Positions 2,884 to 21,379 of a stretch of DNA of 21,379 nucleotides are shown here, one piece after another. Each line of letters begins with the position of its first letter. Within the stretch, counting starts at the first letter, position 1. The DNA is taken from positions 1-21,379 of the IMG/VR virus record IMGVR_UViG_3300037487_002134; one strand, written 5' to 3'. The notes below the pieces were generated by a model. The model did no database searches and was not told where the DNA came from. It saw only the letters and a list, made by a program, of their open reading frames with translations. This DNA comes from a virus. The position numbers were made by a program, and so were the translations under genes.

Positions 2884-3114
2884 ATGGATACAAAAATAAA
2901 AATTGAAGAAAATCTACTAAGACAAATTTTTGACCAAGAAGCTAAAAAAATAGTGGGAATCTGTATGAAGCGTTTTGAAATTCACAGCAATCCAGAAGAC
3001 CAGAAAAAAGCAATAAAAGAAGCACTATATGAAAATTTAAGGAATATCTTAGATATTTTAATAATAAATGGTAAAGAATCAATATATTTAACTAAGAATA
3101 AAAATGATAACTAA
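2884..3114 (+). CDS. Small conserved-type protein preceding terminase
   Basis: A 76-aa, mostly helical, charged protein (helices about residues 6-30 and 40-62). I do not recognise the family. The ATG at 2884 is chosen because AGAGGA lies just upstream; the earlier in-frame ATG at 2857 falls inside the terminator stem. Its end overlaps the start of terminase large subunit by 11 bases, so translation of terminase is probably coupled to it. A small terminase subunit normally occupies this position, but at 76 aa with no evident helix-turn-helix this would be an unusually short one, so that role is only a suggestion. Confidence 0.6.
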   Translation: MDTKIKIEENLLRQIFDQEAKKIVGICMKRFEIHSNPEDQKKAIKEALYENLRNILDILIINGKESIYLTKNKNDN

Positions 3115-5839
3115 AATTTCTGAAGAAGATTTACTATTTTTTCAAACATTATCGCACCCTATCAACTGTGGAGAAATTTTATTTCACGATTTTGATTCTT
3201 TAGGTTCATGGGATAAAGAAAAATTTGGCAAAATAAGAGTATATCAATATCCTATGATAGCATTTGACAGTTTATTTTTAGAAGACCCAAAGTTATCGAT
3301 GCAAGAAAATTTTAATATAAAAAATGGAATGGCCGAGAGTTATAATTTAGGTGGAAGGCTTACAGGAAAAACTGCCATTTCTATCATCATAGATGGTTTG
3401 GTGGCTATTTTTAACAAAACATTTAAATGGGGAGTAATTAGTGCTTATGATAAATTACATGTTCAAGAAGCATTTGAAAAAATGATTACTTCTTTAGAAA
3501 ATCATCCAATAATGAGAATGTTGAACGCTCATATCTTAAGAAGTCCAACTTATAAAATTACTGCCGATAATGGTTGTTTATTAGAAAGTGTTAATATGAA
3601 TATTATGGGGAAGGCCCCCGGAGCACAATTTTTCGGCAAGCACATCGATAAACACTGGATGGAGGAATCGTCTTTTATTACACAATCTGTATCTAATAAA
3701 TTATTAATGGCACAATCAGAATTGGGATGTATTAATCGTTTTTCTGGAATGACTACATTTAGTAAACATGCACCAATGGGTAAGATTTTTTTAGACTTGA
3801 AGAATAATACCAGGATTACCAATCTTCCTTCTTATGTTAATCCTACATGGAATTCAAAGAAAGAGGAAGATTCTATTCTTGAATTTGGCGGAAAAGAATG
3901 TTTTGATGATAAGACAGAAATATTAACCGATTCTGGATGGAAGAATATAGATACCATCGCATTAACAGATAGGACTGTAAGTTGGGATGTTGATGGTTCT
4001 GGAATCTCCGAATACGCACCAATAAACAATATTTTTAAGCACGAATATGATGGAAAATTATATGGATATAATACTCAGCATGTTAATTTTTTAGTTACAA
4101 ATAATCACAAACTTCCATTAAAAACATTAAAAAAGAAATATAGACTGATTTCTTTACAAACGATTTTAGATAATAAACCAATTAAAGAATCTTATATTTT
4201 AGATAGTACAGAAACCTGTTTACAATGTGGCAAAAAACTCGACAAATCTTATTTAAAAAAGCAAAAATATTTTTGCTCCGTTGGATGTAAAAATAAATAT
4301 ACTTCTCGGTATATATACTATCCAGTAAAGGAGCTACATTTAAAACAGAACATGGCTTGGTCGGGGCAGGAAATTAAAAACATAAAAGTAGGAAAGAGAT
4401 ATTTTGATACAGACACTTTTTTGATTTTTTTAGGCTGGTTTGTAAGTGAAGGCTGTGTTTGCGAAATTAAAGAAAAAAGGGGGTTATTTGAATGGACACA
4501 TTGGAGAATTCAAATATCCCAAACGAAATCAATAGAATATATTGCCGAGATTAAAAATACATTACATTCTCTAGGATTAAATGACCACTATTCTTGCGGT
4601 AATTTTGTAATTACAGACAAAGTTTTGGCGAAATATCTTTTAGAAAATTGCGGTAAATATGCTATAAATAAAAAAGTTCCAGAATTTTTAAGACATCTAT
4701 CTTGTCGACAGATTAATATATTCTTAGATGCTTTTAATAAAGGAGATGGCGATGGTAAAAGAACAGAATATTATACAACATCTTCTAGATTATCCAATGA
4801 ATTGCAGGAGCTTATAATTAAGTCTGGAGGTTACGCTTCTATTTGTATTGCAAAAAAAGCATCGGACAAAACTAACATTCTTTATTTAATTAGCGAAAGA
4901 ACAAAAGTTAGAGAATCTAGTTTATACACAGATAAGATTATCCCAGAAAATTATCGAGGTAAGATTTGGTGTGTTGAAACAAATCCATATCATACAGTGT
5001 ATATAAGAAGAGATGGAAAATGCTCTTGGTCTGGTAACAGTATAGGTTACAAAGTTCAAATTGAAGGAAAGGTTGTAGAAGATTCTGATTCAGTGTACGA
5101 TATTGAAAGAATAAGAGAGTCATATAATAAAAAAGTAGATATAAAAACATTTGAAATTACTAAAGATAATTTTTTTAGATTTAAAGAAATTTTAGTTATG
5201 GAAAAATTAGTAAATTCAGATTTTGGTTATTTATGTTCTGATATTGGAGAAGGAGCTGCACCAACCGAAATAATTATTATTTTTAAAGTAAAAGATAAAT
5301 ATAAATATACCTACAATATCACAGCCACAAGATTATCGGGAGATGAACAATATAGTTTATTTAAATTTGTTATTGATTTAATTAAACCAAATGTAGTCGG
5401 TCTGGATACCACATCGGGAATGGGAAAAGCATTAGCGTCTAGATTAACAAAAGATTATCCAGAAAATATAATTTGGGTTTCATTTAATGAAAAAATTAGA
5501 ATAGATTTTGAAAAAGATGATAAAGGAAATTTTGTTATAGATTCCAAAGGTCAATATCAATATAAAGAAGAATATATAACCGATTGGTCAATACAAAGAT
5601 TAAAGCATCTTTTTTATAATAATAAAATGGAATGTTTAACAGATTATAAGTTAGATGTACAATTTGGCGGTATTGTAGCAACTCGAAGTGGATTAAGAAC
5701 CGTATATGCAAGCAAAACAGCGAACCATTTACATCAGGCTTTCCAGGTATTTAGCATCGTTGAATGGCAAGCAGAATTTAGCACATTAAAACCAACACAT
5801 AGAAGAAAATTAAGTATGGGAGTATTTGGTAATCATTAA
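3104..5839 (+). CDS. terL: Terminase large subunit with in-frame intein
   Basis: A 911-aa precursor; removing a 380-aa intein (residues 266-645) leaves a 531-aa DNA-packaging motor of normal terminase size. The N-terminal ATPase shows Walker A GGRLTGKT at 83-90, a Walker B-like acidic segment DKHWMEE (about 182-188) and a coupling-motif-like SGMTT (214-218). The C-terminal RNase H-like nuclease, which cuts the concatemer, shows Asp713 in SDIGEGAAPT and Asp768 in VVGLDTTSGMGK. The third metal ligand, usually Asp near the C-terminus, is not obvious: the matching region reads ANHLHQAF (873-880). The start has no strong ribosome site and overlaps the previous gene, suggesting coupling. The location between tail tube and tape measure genes, away from any head genes seen here, is unusual. 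Confidence 0.9.
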   Translation: MITKISEEDLLFFQTLSHPINCGEILFHDFDSLGSWDKEKFGKIRVYQYPMIAFDSLFLEDPKLSMQENFNIKNGMAESYNLGGRLTGKTAISIIIDGLVAIFNKTFKWGVISAYDKLHVQEAFEKMITSLENHPIMRMLNAHILRSPTYKITADNGCLLESVNMNIMGKAPGAQFFGKHIDKHWMEESSFITQSVSNKLLMAQSELGCINRFSGMTTFSKHAPMGKIFLDLKNNTRITNLPSYVNPTWNSKKEEDSILEFGGKECFDDKTEILTDSGWKNIDTIALTDRTVSWDVDGSGISEYAPINNIFKHEYDGKLYGYNTQHVNFLVTNNHKLPLKTLKKKYRLISLQTILDNKPIKESYILDSTETCLQCGKKLDKSYLKKQKYFCSVGCKNKYTSRYIYYPVKELHLKQNMAWSGQEIKNIKVGKRYFDTDTFLIFLGWFVSEGCVCEIKEKRGLFEWTHWRIQISQTKSIEYIAEIKNTLHSLGLNDHYSCGNFVITDKVLAKYLLENCGKYAINKKVPEFLRHLSCRQINIFLDAFNKGDGDGKRTEYYTTSSRLSNELQELIIKSGGYASICIAKKASDKTNILYLISERTKVRESSLYTDKIIPENYRGKIWCVETNPYHTVYIRRDGKCSWSGNSIGYKVQIEGKVVEDSDSVYDIERIRESYNKKVDIKTFEITKDNFFRFKEILVMEKLVNSDFGYLCSDIGEGAAPTEIIIIFKVKDKYKYTYNITATRLSGDEQYSLFKFVIDLIKPNVVGLDTTSGMGKALASRLTKDYPENIIWVSFNEKIRIDFEKDDKGNFVIDSKGQYQYKEEYITDWSIQRLKHLFYNNKMECLTDYKLDVQFGGIVATRSGLRTVYASKTANHLHQAFQVFSIVEWQAEFSTLKPTHRRKLSMGVFGNH
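3899..5038 (+). mobile_element. Intein with LAGLIDADG homing endonuclease in terminase
   Basis: A 380-aa protein-splicing element from Cys266 to Asn645 of the precursor, followed by Ser646 (+1). Splicing block A starts at CFDDKTEIL, block B has Thr332 and His335 (VTNNH), block F is VETNPYHTVYIRRDGK, and block G ends SGN before Ser. The penultimate residue is Gly, not the usual His, a variant seen in many phage inteins. The inserted endonuclease has two LAGLIDADG helices, FLGWFVSEG (442-450, acidic Glu449) and FLDAFNKGDG (540-549, acidic Asp548), so it may be active. An extra zinc-ribbon-like unit (Cys372, Cys375, Cys391, Cys395) lies between block B and the first helix. Insertion is in the linker between ATPase and nuclease domains (FGGKE before it, SIGYKV after it). 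The frame is intact throughout. Confidence 0.93.
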
Positions 5840-10060: not shown

Positions 10061-10810
10061 ATGAATAGAGATAAGTTAGGAAGATTTATTAAAGGAATTA
10101 ATTATTTTCCAGAGAACTCATTTAAAAAAGGTGAGCATCCCTGGAACTATAAAGGTTTGGATAAATTAAATTTTATTTGTAAAATTTGTGGATGTAAGAT
10201 AAGTAAAAAATCTTTTTTATATGGATTAAGAATGTGTAAATCTTGTTCCCATAAGAAAGAAAACGGATTTCAACCAAGAATATGGACTGATGAACATCGT
10301 AAAAATCTTAGTGAAGCATGTAAAGGAAGAGTTAGTAGTTTTAAAGGTCATCATCATACAGAAGAAGTTAAAAAATTAATGTCAAAAGAACGAATAGGAA
10401 TAAAGAGACCAGAATTTTGTGGTAATAATAATCCTGCAAAAAGACCAGAAGTACAAGAAAAAATGAGAAAACCGCATCCAAGTATTGCAGGTAAAAATCA
10501 TCCTTGTTTTGGTAAAACAATGAAACCACATTTTATTCAATATAAAAATATTTGGTTCCGTAGTAATTGGGAAGTAACTTTAGCTAAAGAATTAGATTCA
10601 AAAAGAATTAAATGGTTATACGAACCTAAAACTTTTGATTTAGGCAATACTACATATACACCAGATTTTTATTTAGCAAAAACTAAAGAATATATTGAAG
10701 TTAAAGGTTATAAATCTGAAGCATTTGAAAATAAATTTAAACTATTTAAAAAATTATATCCTAAAATTAAGATTAAAATTTTAGACGAAATTTATTTTAG
10801 AAAGGAATAA
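10061..10810 (+). CDS. Homing-type endonuclease: zinc ribbon, NUMOD3 repeats and PD-(D/E)XK domain
   Basis: A 249-aa basic protein. Residues 40-62 are a zinc-ribbon-like unit (Cys40, Cys43, Cys59, Cys62). About residues 74-145 hold two to three NUMOD3-type DNA-binding repeats (WTDEHRKNLSEACKGR, HHTEEVKKLMSKERIG, and a weaker KRPEVQEKMRKPH). Residues ~160-249 form a small nuclease with the signature Glu171 ... Pro201-Asp202 ... Glu213-Val-Lys215, i.e. PD-X10-EVK, as in PD-(D/E)XK or Vsr/TnsA-like nucleases. NUMOD3 modules normally accompany GIY-YIG or HNH homing nucleases, so this pairing is unusual. The gene lies in a tight gap between two structural genes and has its own AAGGA ribosome site. 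It would be expected to cut a phage locus lacking it and spread by repair. Confidence 0.82.
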   Translation: MNRDKLGRFIKGINYFPENSFKKGEHPWNYKGLDKLNFICKICGCKISKKSFLYGLRMCKSCSHKKENGFQPRIWTDEHRKNLSEACKGRVSSFKGHHHTEEVKKLMSKERIGIKRPEFCGNNNPAKRPEVQEKMRKPHPSIAGKNHPCFGKTMKPHFIQYKNIWFRSNWEVTLAKELDSKRIKWLYEPKTFDLGNTTYTPDFYLAKTKEYIEVKGYKSEAFENKFKLFKKLYPKIKIKILDEIYFRKE

Positions 10811-11895: not shown

Positions 11896-12570
11896 ATGAA
11901 AACTAAAAAACAATTATTAGAATATAATAAGAAATATATAAAACTCTACCCCGATAAAAAAAGATTATGGGATAAAAAATATAAAGATTCTCATAAAAAA
12001 GAAGTTAAAGAGAGATTAAAAATTTATTATGAGAAAAATAAAGAGAAGTTATTAGAACAAATGAAATCATATAGAGAATTACATCAACAAGAAATAAAAA
12101 TATATCAAAAAAAATATAGAAAGAATCATAAAGAAAAAAATAATGAATATCAAAAATTTTATAGAATCGAGAATAAAAAACAATTAAGAATCAAAGATAA
12201 TATTTATCATAAATTAAATCGAAAACATTATAACAAATATCAGATTATTAAACGGAAAACAGATATAAACTATAGAATTAAGTATTATTTGAGAAATCGG
12301 GTGAGGATGGCTTTATATGGCAATCAAAAATTATCTACAACAATGAAGTTAGTAAGTTGTTCTATTGAAAAATTAAAACAACATTTAGAATCTCAGTTTC
12401 AGGTAGGTATGTCTTTTAGTAATTACGGAAATTGGCACATTGACCATATTAGACCTTGTGCTTTATTTGATTTAAGCAAACCAGAAGAACAGAAGAAATG
12501 TTTCCATTATACCAACCTCCAACCCTTGTGGGCAGTGGATAATCTAAGAAAAGGTAAAAAATATGAATAA
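11896..12570 (+). CDS. Free-standing HNH endonuclease with long basic helical N-terminus
   Basis: A 224-aa very basic protein. Residues 1-125 are almost wholly helical, with degenerate repeats of about 14-18 residues, each with a Tyr- and Lys-rich core (YNKKY, YEKNKEK, YQKKYRKNHKE, YQKFYR), probably a DNA-binding arm. The C-terminal HNH domain shows WHIDHIRP (His181, Asp183, His184), Asn207 in TNLQPLW and a final NLRKGKK, the usual phage HNH layout. No zinc Cys pairs are visible, which sets it apart from the HNH protein at 2054. Its 3' end overlaps the next gene by 8 bases. The ribosome site is weak and a hairpin lies just upstream, so translation is probably restrained. Likely a homing endonuclease. 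Confidence 0.85.
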   Translation: MKTKKQLLEYNKKYIKLYPDKKRLWDKKYKDSHKKEVKERLKIYYEKNKEKLLEQMKSYRELHQQEIKIYQKKYRKNHKEKNNEYQKFYRIENKKQLRIKDNIYHKLNRKHYNKYQIIKRKTDINYRIKYYLRNRVRMALYGNQKLSTTMKLVSCSIEKLKQHLESQFQVGMSFSNYGNWHIDHIRPCALFDLSKPEEQKKCFHYTNLQPLWAVDNLRKGKKYE

Positions 12571-17163: not shown

Positions 17164-19236
17164 ATGGACGTAAATAAATGCCCATATTGTTTTAGACCAT
17201 CTGGTACATGGAAAAAAGACCCTATTCTTTTACCTAACGGAAGTCCGCTGGTTTGGACTTCAGATACTGAACTTATTTTAGAACCCGATATAACAAAAAG
17301 AATTTATAAAGGAACTTATCAGGTTAGCGAGCCAGAAATACAAGAAATACGGGACAGTTTAAAAACGTTAGAGATAGAAGGAGGAATTATTCCTGCCACT
17401 ATATTTTCCCCTCTAAATACTTCTGGAAAATTTCAGATAACAGGTACTCATATTAAGGAAATGAGAGATTCTGTAGAAAAATTATTAACTGCCAGTGGAT
17501 TAACTAAAATAGATTATTTTAATTATGATGATAATGGAGTCCATATAACCACACCTACTGGGGATAAACTGGATTGGACCGACCCAATTACAGAAGCTAC
17601 CGATTTACAAAAATTTCAAATAAAATATATTCATATTGAAGAATTACGTCGAGTTGAATCGGGATTAAATAGATTATTTATAAAATTTTTAGAACCAGAA
17701 CGTTCAGCAGAAGTTCAGTATGAACATTGGTCCACTTTAAATTTTCCTTTTCAATCAGATACCAATATGATTGGAATAGACAATAAGTTTATAAATGGTA
17801 CTTCAAATTTTGATATTCCCAGTTCTCCTAGTTTTATAGGCATGTTAAATAATGAAGACTTATATGTATGCGACGAAAATTATATATATTCAACTAGTGC
17901 TGTCTATTGGGCAATAGATGGAGTTTTTGGTAGTTTATATAGAGTATACAAAACACCATTAAACGCCTGTAAACCCGAATATATAACGGATAGTTTACCC
18001 AAACCCCCAGAAAGTCCAGTAATCGACAGTTCTTATATAATTTTTGAATCTACCCCCCCATCTGAAGAAGACCCAAATCCCTGGTGGGGTAAAGATGGGC
18101 AAATAGCCACATTTACTGGTAGTGGATGGTCATATAGCCTTCCCCTAGAATATGATTTTATTTGGCAAATATCCGATAAAAAATATTATCGTTACTTATC
18201 GGGAATTTGGAGTATTGCTCCTAATCAAGATATACCACCAAATGAATGGACAAGACCTATTTATGTATGTTTTTTTAAATTTTTTCCAAATATTATCCCA
18301 TTAAAACAGGACAGCGTAGAAAGTAACTGTATTGCGGTAGATAACCTATATATATATCTTATTTCTTCTCACTGGGATTTTCCACTCTCAGCAGACGGAT
18401 TTAGAAATTATAAATTAAGAATTATTAAATTTGATAAAATTACAGGAATGTTAATTACAGATAGTGATTTAATTACTGGAATGTACAAATATTTTAGCAT
18501 GGGGCATGATAAGAATAATTTATATTTATGGTATGGTAAACAAACTTCTTATATCGCAAGTTGGTGGGGTACGCTTGGGGGTTGGGTTTATAAAACTGTT
18601 TATGTAACTACGGCGAGTCCTAATGGAGTTTATCAGGATGAATTTAATGGTGGGATTGGACACTGTAATAGATTTGTTACAGAAGCGGGTATTCAAGTAG
18701 TTAATAAAGAAACACTATCTTTGGATGCGAGCAAAATAATCTGGGAAGAAAATATAGATTATCCCCTCGAAGAGTTTGGCCCCGTTGCAAGTCCTAGAAT
18801 ATTACGTTATAGACAACAAAATGCTGTAGATGAAATTCCAGGTATAAACCTTTTATATATAATGCCAGATATAGCGACTTTTCATTATGTAGAAGGAGTT
18901 AGTTTTCCCCTGCCCCTTGAAAGACGAAGGCGGTTATTTAAAATTAATGGAGATACACTTTCTACCATTATTACTAACGATTTTGCGGGTGATACTTATA
19001 CTGGTTGGATTATACATAATGGTTATTTACTATATGTTTATTATCATTATATGCCGGGCGGAGTATATATTGATAACCACGCGGATTATTTAACTTATGA
19101 TTTAACAACTTTTAGTTTAATAACCACATACCCTCACTTAACCTATGGTTTAAATACGTATATTCGCACACTTCCCTCCGTTTTATTAACAACCGAAGAT
19201 TATATGTATTCTATTAGAGAACGTATAGAAATTTAG
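17164..19236 (+). CDS. Large multi-domain tail-tip protein (candidate receptor-binding protein)
   Basis: A 690-aa protein starting two bases after the preceding stop, with AGGAG upstream. Residues 6-9 are CPYC, a lone CxxC. Three similar helical units follow (about 48-70, 88-110 and 149-172), each with a pattern (K)-(F/Y)-Q-(I/V)-x-x-x-x-I-x-E-(I/M/L)-R, e.g. GKFQITGTHIKEMRDS and QKFQIKYIHIEELRRV; such I-x-E-x-R helices recur in phage structural proteins. Residues ~279-350 resemble the small DUF2793-type tail domain (SSYIIFE, WWGKDGQIATFTGSGWSY, YYRYLSGIW). Before and after it are strand repeats typical of a beta-propeller (DNLYIYLIS, NNLYLWYG). Role inferred: host recognition at the distal tip. 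It is the last gene of the tail module. Confidence 0.6.
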   Translation: MDVNKCPYCFRPSGTWKKDPILLPNGSPLVWTSDTELILEPDITKRIYKGTYQVSEPEIQEIRDSLKTLEIEGGIIPATIFSPLNTSGKFQITGTHIKEMRDSVEKLLTASGLTKIDYFNYDDNGVHITTPTGDKLDWTDPITEATDLQKFQIKYIHIEELRRVESGLNRLFIKFLEPERSAEVQYEHWSTLNFPFQSDTNMIGIDNKFINGTSNFDIPSSPSFIGMLNNEDLYVCDENYIYSTSAVYWAIDGVFGSLYRVYKTPLNACKPEYITDSLPKPPESPVIDSSYIIFESTPPSEEDPNPWWGKDGQIATFTGSGWSYSLPLEYDFIWQISDKKYYRYLSGIWSIAPNQDIPPNEWTRPIYVCFFKFFPNIIPLKQDSVESNCIAVDNLYIYLISSHWDFPLSADGFRNYKLRIIKFDKITGMLITDSDLITGMYKYFSMGHDKNNLYLWYGKQTSYIASWWGTLGGWVYKTVYVTTASPNGVYQDEFNGGIGHCNRFVTEAGIQVVNKETLSLDASKIIWEENIDYPLEEFGPVASPRILRYRQQNAVDEIPGINLLYIMPDIATFHYVEGVSFPLPLERRRRLFKINGDTLSTIITNDFAGDTYTGWIIHNGYLLYVYYHYMPGGVYIDNHADYLTYDLTTFSLITTYPHLTYGLNTYIRTLPSVLLTTEDYMYSIRERIEI

Positions 19237-19237
19237 G

Positions 19238-19918
19238 TTATTCTCTCTCTAAACAATCTTTTACAAAACAAAGTACCCAATAGATTACTTCCTTAATTTC
19301 TCTAAAATTAACAGTCCCCCCAAATAACCTAAACTCAATAGTTTGATAATCATTTTTTGGTAGATGCGAAACATTTAGACTATAATATTTTTCGTCTAAA
19401 TATCCATAAACCTGGAATGATGTTCTTAGATTATTCCTGAAGGCGTGTATTTCTTTTTCTGTTAGTTTATTTAACTTACTTTTGGGCAATAGTTTACAAG
19501 TTTCTTCTAGTCTTTCTTTAGAAACCTTAAATCTTTTAGCTACAAACCGTTGCTTATGGACCCACTCTTTTACTATAGTAAGAATTTGTTTATCAGATAA
19601 ATTTTTTACATTTATATGGATATGAAGTCCGCAGCTAGGAAGAGCCCGCCCCCTATAAACCCTAACTAAAGCTAATACCTCTTTAATCTGCATTAAAGAG
19701 TCCTGATTATAATAAAGATGATTAGAATTTTCTGGAGAAAGTTCAATACCATTAGTTAAAGAGCCATCTGCCTTTATTTCCCATCCCTTAAGGGTTTTAC
19801 CTCTATCAATAAGTTTGTCGGAATCCGTTTTTGCTGGCAGTTCAATTTCTAATTCTGGAGAATATCTTATTTTTTTTATATCAATAAGGATAATTTTATT
19901 TACTATTTTATTTTTCAT
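19238..19918 (-). CDS. Amidoligase (COOH-NH2 ligase superfamily)
   Basis: A 226-aa protein with the motif set of the Amidoligase_2 family (glutamine-synthetase-like/GCS fold): LEIELP (23-28), DGSL (51-54) then IELSP (58-62), GLHIHI (97-102), KYYSLN (177-182) and TIEFRLFGGT (193-202). These supply the ATP/metal and carboxylate-binding residues (Glu24/26, Asp51, Glu59, His99, His101, Asn182, Glu195, Arg197). Members join a carboxylate to an amine with ATP, forming an amide or isopeptide bond. All motifs are intact. Start: ATG with GAGGA upstream, overlapping the end of the 51-aa gene by 11 bases. It ends one base from the tail-tip gene's stop, in convergent orientation. The substrate is unknown; clustering with glycosyltransferase genes suggests modification of a glycan-linked amino sugar, cell-wall peptide or virion surface. 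Confidence 0.82.
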   Translation of the reverse strand: MKNKIVNKIILIDIKKIRYSPELEIELPAKTDSDKLIDRGKTLKGWEIKADGSLTNGIELSPENSNHLYYNQDSLMQIKEVLALVRVYRGRALPSCGLHIHINVKNLSDKQILTIVKEWVHKQRFVAKRFKVSKERLEETCKLLPKSKLNKLTEKEIHAFRNNLRTSFQVYGYLDEKYYSLNVSHLPKNDYQTIEFRLFGGTVNFREIKEVIYWVLCFVKDCLERE

Positions 19919-20063
19919 TTATTTTCCTCACTTCCCAAAACTTTCTTTTAACAATAGATTCGTCTTCTAATTTAATTTCTAAATCGTCTTGAAAAATACC
20001 GATAATAATTCCCTTAACTATTTTTGTTTCGTATTTTATTAGTACAAATTGAGTTATATACAT
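19908..20063 (-). CDS. 51-aa hypothetical protein in amidoligase cassette
   Basis: Encodes MYITQFVLIKYETKIVKGII followed by an alternating hydrophobic/acidic stretch and a basic end (KRKFWEVRKINEK), giving the look of a small beta-barrel. Support: an AAGGGG ribosome site just upstream, overlap of its start with the end of the GT2-like gene by 10 bases, and overlap of its end with the start of the amidoligase by 11 bases. Such interlocking makes chance unlikely. No family recognised. Confidence 0.65.
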   Translation of the reverse strand: MYITQFVLIKYETKIVKGIIIGIFQDDLEIKLEDESIVKRKFWEVRKINEK

Positions 20064-20689
20064 TTTCCCCTTACTTTTTGCCCCGATAATATTTGGTAGT
20101 TTTTTATTCTTTTGCGATAAATTTTATATTCTTCGCTTGTTTGTCCACCCACTCTTTTAAAATTATAATTTTTATTCCAAGAAATTCTATAGCCACATTT
20201 AATATATTTTAAAGAAGCCAACGAATATTCATAAAGTTTCATTTCTGAATCCCATAAATTAATTAAAGTATCAGTTTTTGCTATAAAAATATGTTTTAAT
20301 GCAGCAGGAGAAGTTTCTTTTATTTGAAAATTAATTAAAGTATTACGGTCTAATTGACAGAAAAGTGGTTCAAAATCATTTATTCCCGTAAATTGTATAG
20401 AATTGTACATAACCAAACAATATGGGATATTTATTTCGGATGCTTTTTGTACTAAAAAATTTCTTGCCACCGACAATCCAGAATCAAACGGAATTTGGTA
20501 ATAGTTTAAAGGAATTTGAGATTGATAATAGTCTATAGCAATAGTTTTATCGTCCGATTTATACCCCTGGTCTGCTATTAAAACCATAGAATCGATTGGT
20601 AAATTTTCTATAATACTTTGTATAGTTTTATACAATAAAGCGTCCCTCAAGAAAGTAGTAATTAATATTGCTATTTTATAATTATCCAT
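20054..20689 (-). CDS. Glycosyltransferase family 2-like protein lacking a clear DXD motif
   Basis: A 211-aa GT-A-type protein. It opens YKIAILITTFLRDALLYKTI (the usual nucleotide-binding first strand of family 2), has VLIADQG and YYQIPFDSGLSVARNF, which matches the GT2 segment before the metal site (GLSxARN). Where a DXD motif normally follows a hydrophobic strand, the sequence reads CLVMYNSIQF, with no Asp pair. The protein is also short for GT2, ending soon after the second half. It might be a non-catalytic partner, a metal-independent enzyme, or a decayed gene; the frame is intact. It follows the 48-aa gene by 4 bases with no strong ribosome site, so it is probably translationally coupled. 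Confidence 0.7.
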   Translation of the reverse strand: MDNYKIAILITTFLRDALLYKTIQSIIENLPIDSMVLIADQGYKSDDKTIAIDYYQSQIPLNYYQIPFDSGLSVARNFLVQKASEINIPYCLVMYNSIQFTGINDFEPLFCQLDRNTLINFQIKETSPAALKHIFIAKTDTLINLWDSEMKLYEYSLASLKYIKCGYRISWNKNYNFKRVGGQTSEEYKIYRKRIKNYQILSGQKVRGKCI

Positions 20690-20693
20690 ATTT

Positions 20694-20840
20694 TTATATT
20701 TCGTTATTAAAAATTAAATAGTATATCTGCTTTAAATTACTAAAGGTAACTTTTTCTTGTAAAAAATACCAAAGCATTATCGGAAATATAACAAAATAAA
20801 ATAATAGCCCAAAAATTAGCCCCAATAATATTTTAATCAT
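20694..20840 (-). CDS. 48-aa membrane peptide
   Basis: Encodes a very hydrophobic N-terminal helix (residues 3-27, IKILLGLIFGLLFYFV then PIMLWYF) followed by a short polar tail. The start codon overlaps the stop of the GT9-like gene (ATGATTAA) by 8 bases and the GT2-like gene starts 4 bases after its stop, so it belongs to the same transcript. A single membrane helix next to two glycosyltransferases could anchor the complex at the membrane, but I do not recognise it. Confidence 0.65.
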   Translation of the reverse strand: MIKILLGLIFGLLFYFVIFPIMLWYFLQEKVTFSNLKQIYYLIFNNEI

Positions 20841-21379
20841 CTAATGTTATTAATTTTGATATTTCCGTAAATACTCCATCCACTGTTATATTTAACATAC
20901 ATGGATGTAATGGATTGTCATAATTTTGCAATTTATCCAGGGGGCATTTACTATCTGGATTTAATGTTTTCCAGTCATATTGTTTATGACAGGGGGAGCA
21001 TACCAGCGGTTTCCACATATTTACATTATGCCCATACCCAAACTCAAGGGGGCTTGTAGAACCCCATAAAATAATACCTTGAGTATAAGGAAATAGGGCC
21101 GTTGCATGATTAGAAAAACTATCTACCCCTAGATGCAAATAAGCTGCTTTAATAAGCTGTACACTTTCTGCTATAGTAAGTTGGCCTACCGTACTAGTAA
21201 CCCCAGTTAGAATAGGGTCTCCTTTTGCCCCAATTTGTACTAAGGTAAACTTATCTAAATTAGTGAACCGATTTACTACTTCTTGCCAATTATTCATAGG
21301 CCAATTTTTATATGGAGACCATCCAGCAGTACAATGAAGAGTAATAATTTTCTTTTCAGACAATAATAATGAGTTAAGA
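20833..21379 (-). CDS. Glycosyltransferase family 9 (heptosyltransferase-like), C-terminal half, cut by window edge
   Basis: Partial gene. About 180 residues remain, and the frame is open to the window edge; an in-frame TTG at 21361-21363 is not a credible start. The visible part is the C-terminal Rossmann domain of a GT-B enzyme: KIITLHCTAGWSPYKNWPMN (first strand with the family's K-x-W-P), LTIAESVQLIKAAYLHLGVD (donor-binding helix), SNHATALF and ILWGSTSPLEF, then a Cys-rich end (CSPCHKQ ... CPLDKL ... HPCMLNIT) typical of GT9. The enzyme would transfer a sugar from a nucleotide-activated donor to a lipid- or protein-linked glycan. It is the first gene seen of the minus-strand cassette and overlaps the 48-aa gene. 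Confidence 0.8.
   Translation of the reverse strand, partial: LNSLLLSEKKIITLHCTAGWSPYKNWPMNNWQEVVNRFTNLDKFTLVQIGAKGDPILTGVTSTVGQLTIAESVQLIKAAYLHLGVDSFSNHATALFPYTQGIILWGSTSPLEFGYGHNVNMWKPLVCSPCHKQYDWKTLNPDSKCPLDKLQNYDNPLHPCMLNITVDGVFTEISKLITLDD

Follow-up and report, generated by a model that had tools for sequence, protein, structure and literature searches.

Do five genes that interlock at the end of a phage contig serve one pathway? The question is raised by a 21,379-base fragment, the entire IMG/VR record IMGVR_UViG_3300037487_002134 (analysed at full length and hereafter called the window), whose last 2.1 kb encodes two glycosyltransferase-like proteins, two tiny proteins and an amidoligase. 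A preliminary description had read these genes as one co-expressed system that makes an amide-linked glycan.

Gene content of the cassette

The five ORFs lie on the minus strand, overlap or almost touch (−8, +4, −10 and −11 bases from the GT9-like gene to the amidoligase gene, negative values denoting overlap) and converge with the tail module, whose last gene stops at 19236, 1 base from the amidoligase stop. The arrangement of five interlocked genes facing the tail module was thereby confirmed, with place and strand of all ORFs as first described. Homologs in other phages show four of the five ORFs to be real, the exception being that of the 48-aa peptide. Three of the five proteins (GT9, GT2 and Amidoligase_2) passed the curated Pfam cut-offs; in the same search of the window proteins no convincing family match was found for the 48-aa peptide and the 51-aa protein (p51), and none of the five matched PADLOC defence models at an E value of 0.01. 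A scan for promoters and terminators returned signal no better than that of shuffled sequences. Because the genes are tightly packed or overlapping, co-expression as originally suggested is favoured, and the five are probably transcribed together in the window phage.

The GT9-like glycosyltransferase gene (20833-21378, minus strand) has lost its 5′ part at the contig end: no start codon is present within the window, and the truncated protein scores 30.9 bits against PF01075 (cut-off 22). A complete homolog of 278 aa, 58-65% identical to the window protein, was found in L002, where it sits downstream of the amidoligase gene, unlike in the window; judged by it, the window gene appears to lack roughly its first 100-120 codons. 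This complete homolog scored below the thresholds of the heptosyltransferase equivalog models. The adjoining 48-aa predicted membrane peptide (20694-20840, minus strand; 8-base overlap with the GT9-like gene) is weakly similar to small membrane peptides encoded beside a metallophosphoesterase gene in G005, G002 and G001, the three similarity scores being reached by 8, 1 and 0 of 500 shuffles. The GT2-like protein (20054-20689, minus strand) is barely above the PF00535 cut-off (24.8 versus 23.3 bits), and its orthologs are 59% (G001), 57% (G007) and 40% (G003) identical. Its metal-binding motif reads MYNSIQF, as compared with MPDSIQF in the orthologs and VADDDVEL in a relative from G002, so that DxD is replaced by NSI in the window; because the motif is eroded, activity of this possibly inactive protein looks doubtful. 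The initial list of parts holds for the five ORFs and the intact amidoligase, and is corrected for the 5′-truncated GT9 and for the metal motif of the GT2. For p51 (19908-20063, minus strand), AlphaFold2 predicted a small five-stranded, SH3/Tudor-like β-barrel (pLDDT 78.8), with Tudor domains as the best shape matches (TM ~0.85; E value 0.024 at best, not significant).

Elsewhere in the window, the large terminase gene (3104-5839; 911 aa in all) carries an intein, and three homing-endonuclease-like ORFs (2054-2635, 10061-10810 and 11896-12570) with relatives throughout the group are found in the structural module. Against the phage collection, all terminase matches among those listed were through intein residues only, and for this reason the window lineage looks far from described phages.

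Conservation and genomic sites of the amidoligase

The short amidoligase (19238-19918, minus strand; 226 aa) scores 60.3 bits against PF12224 (cut-off 22; E value 3.5e-16; 59-70 bits in relatives) and keeps the Amidoligase_2 motifs ExxxE, DGSL...E, CGxHxH and EFR. Searching IMG/VR with it, as a single sequence and as an alignment, yielded 8 records from 6 further lineages; further surveys independent of the amidoligase sequence used the tail protein, p51 and an M14 hydrolase as queries. The short amidoligase was found in 11 lineages (G000, which is the window, G001, G002, G003, G004, G005/G006, G007, G009, G018, G022 and L088/L089). All relatives are metagenomic contigs, possibly incomplete and none rated at least 90% complete, and for G018 and L088/L089 the sequence was read around the amidoligase only. 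Universal retention of the enzyme was considered and dropped, as the records had been found with the amidoligase itself and the tail-protein survey revealed related records that lack it, for example G013 (69.6 kb) and fragments. Amidoligase and tail-protein queries against 84,980 species genomes, in which a host or prophage was sought, gave no match.

Among core relatives the amidoligase is 60-81% identical. Residues E21, E25, D50, E58, C95, G96, H98, H100, E194 and R196 are invariant in six short enzymes and in a canonical copy from G005. When seven phages with many genes in common were compared gene by gene, the amidoligase was the most or second most identical shared gene in 13 of the 21 pairs. 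Such strong conservation, together with the intact motifs, would indicate selection for enzyme function. An AlphaFold2 model built from three sequences (pLDDT 48) was too poor for use, and sequence searches found no related solved structure. The canonical G005 copy (499 aa; L025), which has cysteine-rich N-terminal repeats, is located apart from the short one and beside a class-II GATase; searches of the six remaining records did not return this GATase.

The location of the gene varies. In 5 of the 11 lineages (the window, G001, G002, G003 and G007) it occupies a tail-side site adjoining sugar genes, where the order is a BT1-type transporter, ClpP, metallophosphoesterase, often a small membrane peptide, sugar genes, p51 and the amidoligase, followed by the opposite-strand tail module. 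This layout recurs with local differences in G001, G002, G003 (where an unrelated 70-aa ORF takes the p51 position) and G007, and the window fits it as far as it extends. In the lineage represented by records G005 and G006, the transporter, ClpP, metallophosphoesterase, peptide and amidoligase are kept, with no sugar genes or p51 there. A second site, with the order ~83-aa membrane protein, amidoligase and M14/AstE-like zinc hydrolase, is used in G004, G009, G022 and L088/L089, and G018 has the gene at a third place. Each of the two main sites was also seen empty: in G003 the membrane protein and the M14 gene are adjacent with the amidoligase absent, and in G004, G009 and G022 p51 overlaps the next island gene at the tail side. 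At neither site is a GATase, COOH-NH2 ligase or ATP-grasp gene among the amidoligase neighbours. Its position at different sites in related viruses argues that the amidoligase may be a separate gene, under strong selection and relocating between sites; the forks of the amidoligase tree are mostly weak and leave the direction of movement unsettled. As a separate observation, six of the phages retain a ClpP-like gene next to the metallophosphoesterase, without an obvious reason, and G005 has two ClpP-like genes near its amidoligase locus (L017 4776-8033).

Homing endonucleases have perhaps helped this relocation. An HNH gene lies directly downstream of the amidoligase in four lineages (G001, G009, G018 and L088/L089), against a background of ~5.5% of genes (P value ~0.002, from a rough, post hoc pattern count among phages in which HNH genes are common), and an intein splits the G005/G006 amidoligase within its conserved motif, immediately behind CGLHIH (L017 8732-10396; same place in L018). 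Both features are compatible with the amidoligase being mainly passenger DNA that is spread by homing endonucleases and of little use to the phage. That reading is very unlikely, as the conservation and intact motifs speak for selection on enzyme function and the HNH count is crude.

In all four lineages with the second site, the amidoligase and M14-like genes are overlapping or adjacent, with an HNH gene placed between the two in G009 and L088/L089, and the pairing was recovered also by the M14-only search. The hydrolase residues H59, E62, H141 and E217 (HxxE, second His and catalytic Glu) are invariant in the four copies. The nearest NCBIfam model is N-acetyl-ornithine deacetylase, with a score under the model cut-off. 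This pairing is the most interesting lead of the analysis: the amidoligase might attach an amide-linked amino acid that the M14-type hydrolase of the relatives removes or trims, tail-side copies acting alone or with a host hydrolase. The conserved zinc and catalytic residues suit such a scheme; however, M14 was not found near the amidoligase in lineages other than those four, G003 and more distant phages have it without an amidoligase, and the Pfam M14 cut-off was exceeded in G022 only (53.4 bits), with G004 and G009 below. We therefore regard the scheme as quite unlikely. Doubtful to much the same degree is its extension to an undescribed system built on some conserved target of host or phage, to which a short, mobile amidoligase would couple an amino acid through an amide bond and from which the M14-type hydrolase would release it, glycan islands having captured the ligase in some lineages. 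In one of the more distant phages (L091 3280-4756), an M14-like gene follows a gene for a GNAT-like, amide-forming acetyltransferase, with no amidoligase near.

The glycan island and p51

The sugar genes of the tail-side site belong to an island whose gene content differs in every lineage. The G001 island encodes a GT2 with TPR, a hexapeptide transferase, a further GT2 and a GT9; that of G002 encodes IspD-SDR, GT2, LicD and Polysacc_synt_2 proteins; and that of G003 encodes LicD with GT2, a cytidylyltransferase-like protein, DUF2284, an SDR, more GT2 and a GT9, with a similar set in G007. An intein with a LAGLIDADG-type endonuclease is likewise present in a G002 island gene (L003 7271-9832). 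The G004 island encodes a GT4-type protein together with PIG-L-like, WbqC-like, radical-SAM-like and methyltransferase-like proteins, the latter four assigned by sequence reading only. G004 had at one stage been taken to be without sugar genes, as PF00535, PF01075 and PF04991 gave nothing, until reading of the island and PF00534 revealed these GT4-like and other genes. In G005/G006 a GT4-type gene is found among tail-fibre genes and not at the customary island position; in G005 (42121-43732; L045 2121-3732) PIG-L-like and GT4-type genes lie between tail-fibre-like genes. Since relatives hold larger sets of sugar-nucleotide, LicD and glycosyltransferase genes at the same spot, the glycan role first proposed for the glycosyltransferase genes of the window is supported. 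From its gene content, the island is likely to change the host surface, and the variation in sugar genes between lineages is as expected for surface-glycan diversification.

Homologs of p51, 38-54% identical, were found at island ends in G001, G002 and G007, and p51 is also present in G004, G009 and G022, where island and p51 are ~41, 44 and 39 kb from the amidoligase, respectively. Two roles for p51 were discarded: that of a constant amidoligase partner, as it stays with the island in the latter three lineages, and that of a Pup-like tag, as its C-terminus is not conserved and a barrel fold is predicted. From its positions, p51 goes with the 3′ boundary of the sugar island, which it appears to mark, and not with the amidoligase.

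These positions bear directly on the proposal that the five genes form one pathway, in which a glycan assembled by the glycosyltransferases would receive an amide-linked group from the amidoligase, on a uronic acid for instance, so that the host surface or the virion is changed. The genes overlap in the window, the modules are adjacent also in G001, G002, G003 and G007, and capsule enzymes of Campylobacter jejuni provide a precedent for a glycosyltransferase and an amide ligase acting on one glycan (PMC11800379). Yet the amidoligase is unlinked in G004, G009, G022 and L088/L089, it occurs without an island in G005/G006, the window GT2 has an eroded motif, the ligase is constant while the sugars vary, and the ligase of Campylobacter is of the ATP-grasp type and belongs to another family. 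Some glycosyltransferase is encoded in the genome of every lineage checked, and to that extent co-occurrence in relatives agrees with the preliminary description; its genetic link with the amidoligase is not a general feature. Near the amidoligases of five other annotated phage records, no annotated glycosyltransferase was found. We consider a single pathway unlikely, and the claim of one system making an amide-linked glycan is left unsupported by the lineages in which the ligase stands without the island or in the M14 operon.

Two proposed modules and their nearest known systems

The explanation that we somewhat favour sees in the five genes two modules and not one dedicated pathway: an amide ligase that is conserved and moves between sites, and a hypervariable glycan island beside which it has settled. 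The first module would comprise the GT9, the GT2, p51 and perhaps the 48-aa peptide, as the downstream end of an island that in relatives is placed between the ClpP/metallophosphoesterase pair and the tail module; enzymes of the first module would probably modify a host-surface glycan in infection, with the blocking of other phages as the most likely benefit. The second would be the short, strongly conserved Amidoligase_2 enzyme, moved between the tail-side site and the M14-paired operon. As known from its family, such an enzyme would use ATP to form an acyl phosphate from a carboxylate and then join it to an amine. Because the amidoligase is kept with or without an adjoining island, its substrate is probably not the variable glycan, and we infer a molecule that the hosts share, of amino-acid, peptide or peptidoglycan type. 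Against the two-module explanation, the modules are adjacent and overlapping in 5 of the 11 lineages, which is compatible with a shared role. The comparison separates two functions that a single genome makes look joined. It also offers a handle on the substrates of phage amidoligases, a widespread family: both sites occur with and without the gene, and a hydrolase recurs as its partner.

Among known enzymes, amidoligases of the phiEco32/LUZ24 type belong to the same family (PF12224) and have active-site positions in common with the window enzyme; a role in modifying the cell wall against competing phages has been proposed for them, as cited in two papers (PMC11318856, PMC10580990). They differ in having GATase, COOH-NH2 ligase and ATP-grasp partners, which are absent beside the window-type enzyme; the latter is short and adjoins a glycan island or an M14 hydrolase. 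The five annotated records of other phage amidoligases have GATase, COOH-NH2 ligase or ATP-grasp genes alongside, or none of these. In Campylobacter jejuni (Cj1438/Cj1435), an ATP-grasp domain that forms one protein with a glycosyltransferase serves as the ligase; it is encoded on a bacterial chromosome and unrelated to Amidoligase_2.

For the island, the licD/ispD insertion among syntenic genes of 'Flandersviridae' phages comes closest among published cases; its authors linked it to superinfection (PMC8008677). Both are sporadic insertions of sugar-modification genes in phages, and the pair of IspD-like and LicD proteins is found also in G002; however, no amidoligase or p51 is mentioned for 'Flandersviridae' (PMC8008677), and of the sugar genes only those for GT2 and GT9 are visible in the window. 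Capsular polysaccharide clusters of jumbo cyanophages harbour polymorphic glycosyltransferases, read as diversifying the outer polysaccharide to pre-empt other phages (PMC7824862). They belong to other phages with other gene sets, and no amidoligase is reported in them (PMC7824862), yet they vary between related phages, as do the islands described here, a further example of variable, phage-borne genes for surface modification.
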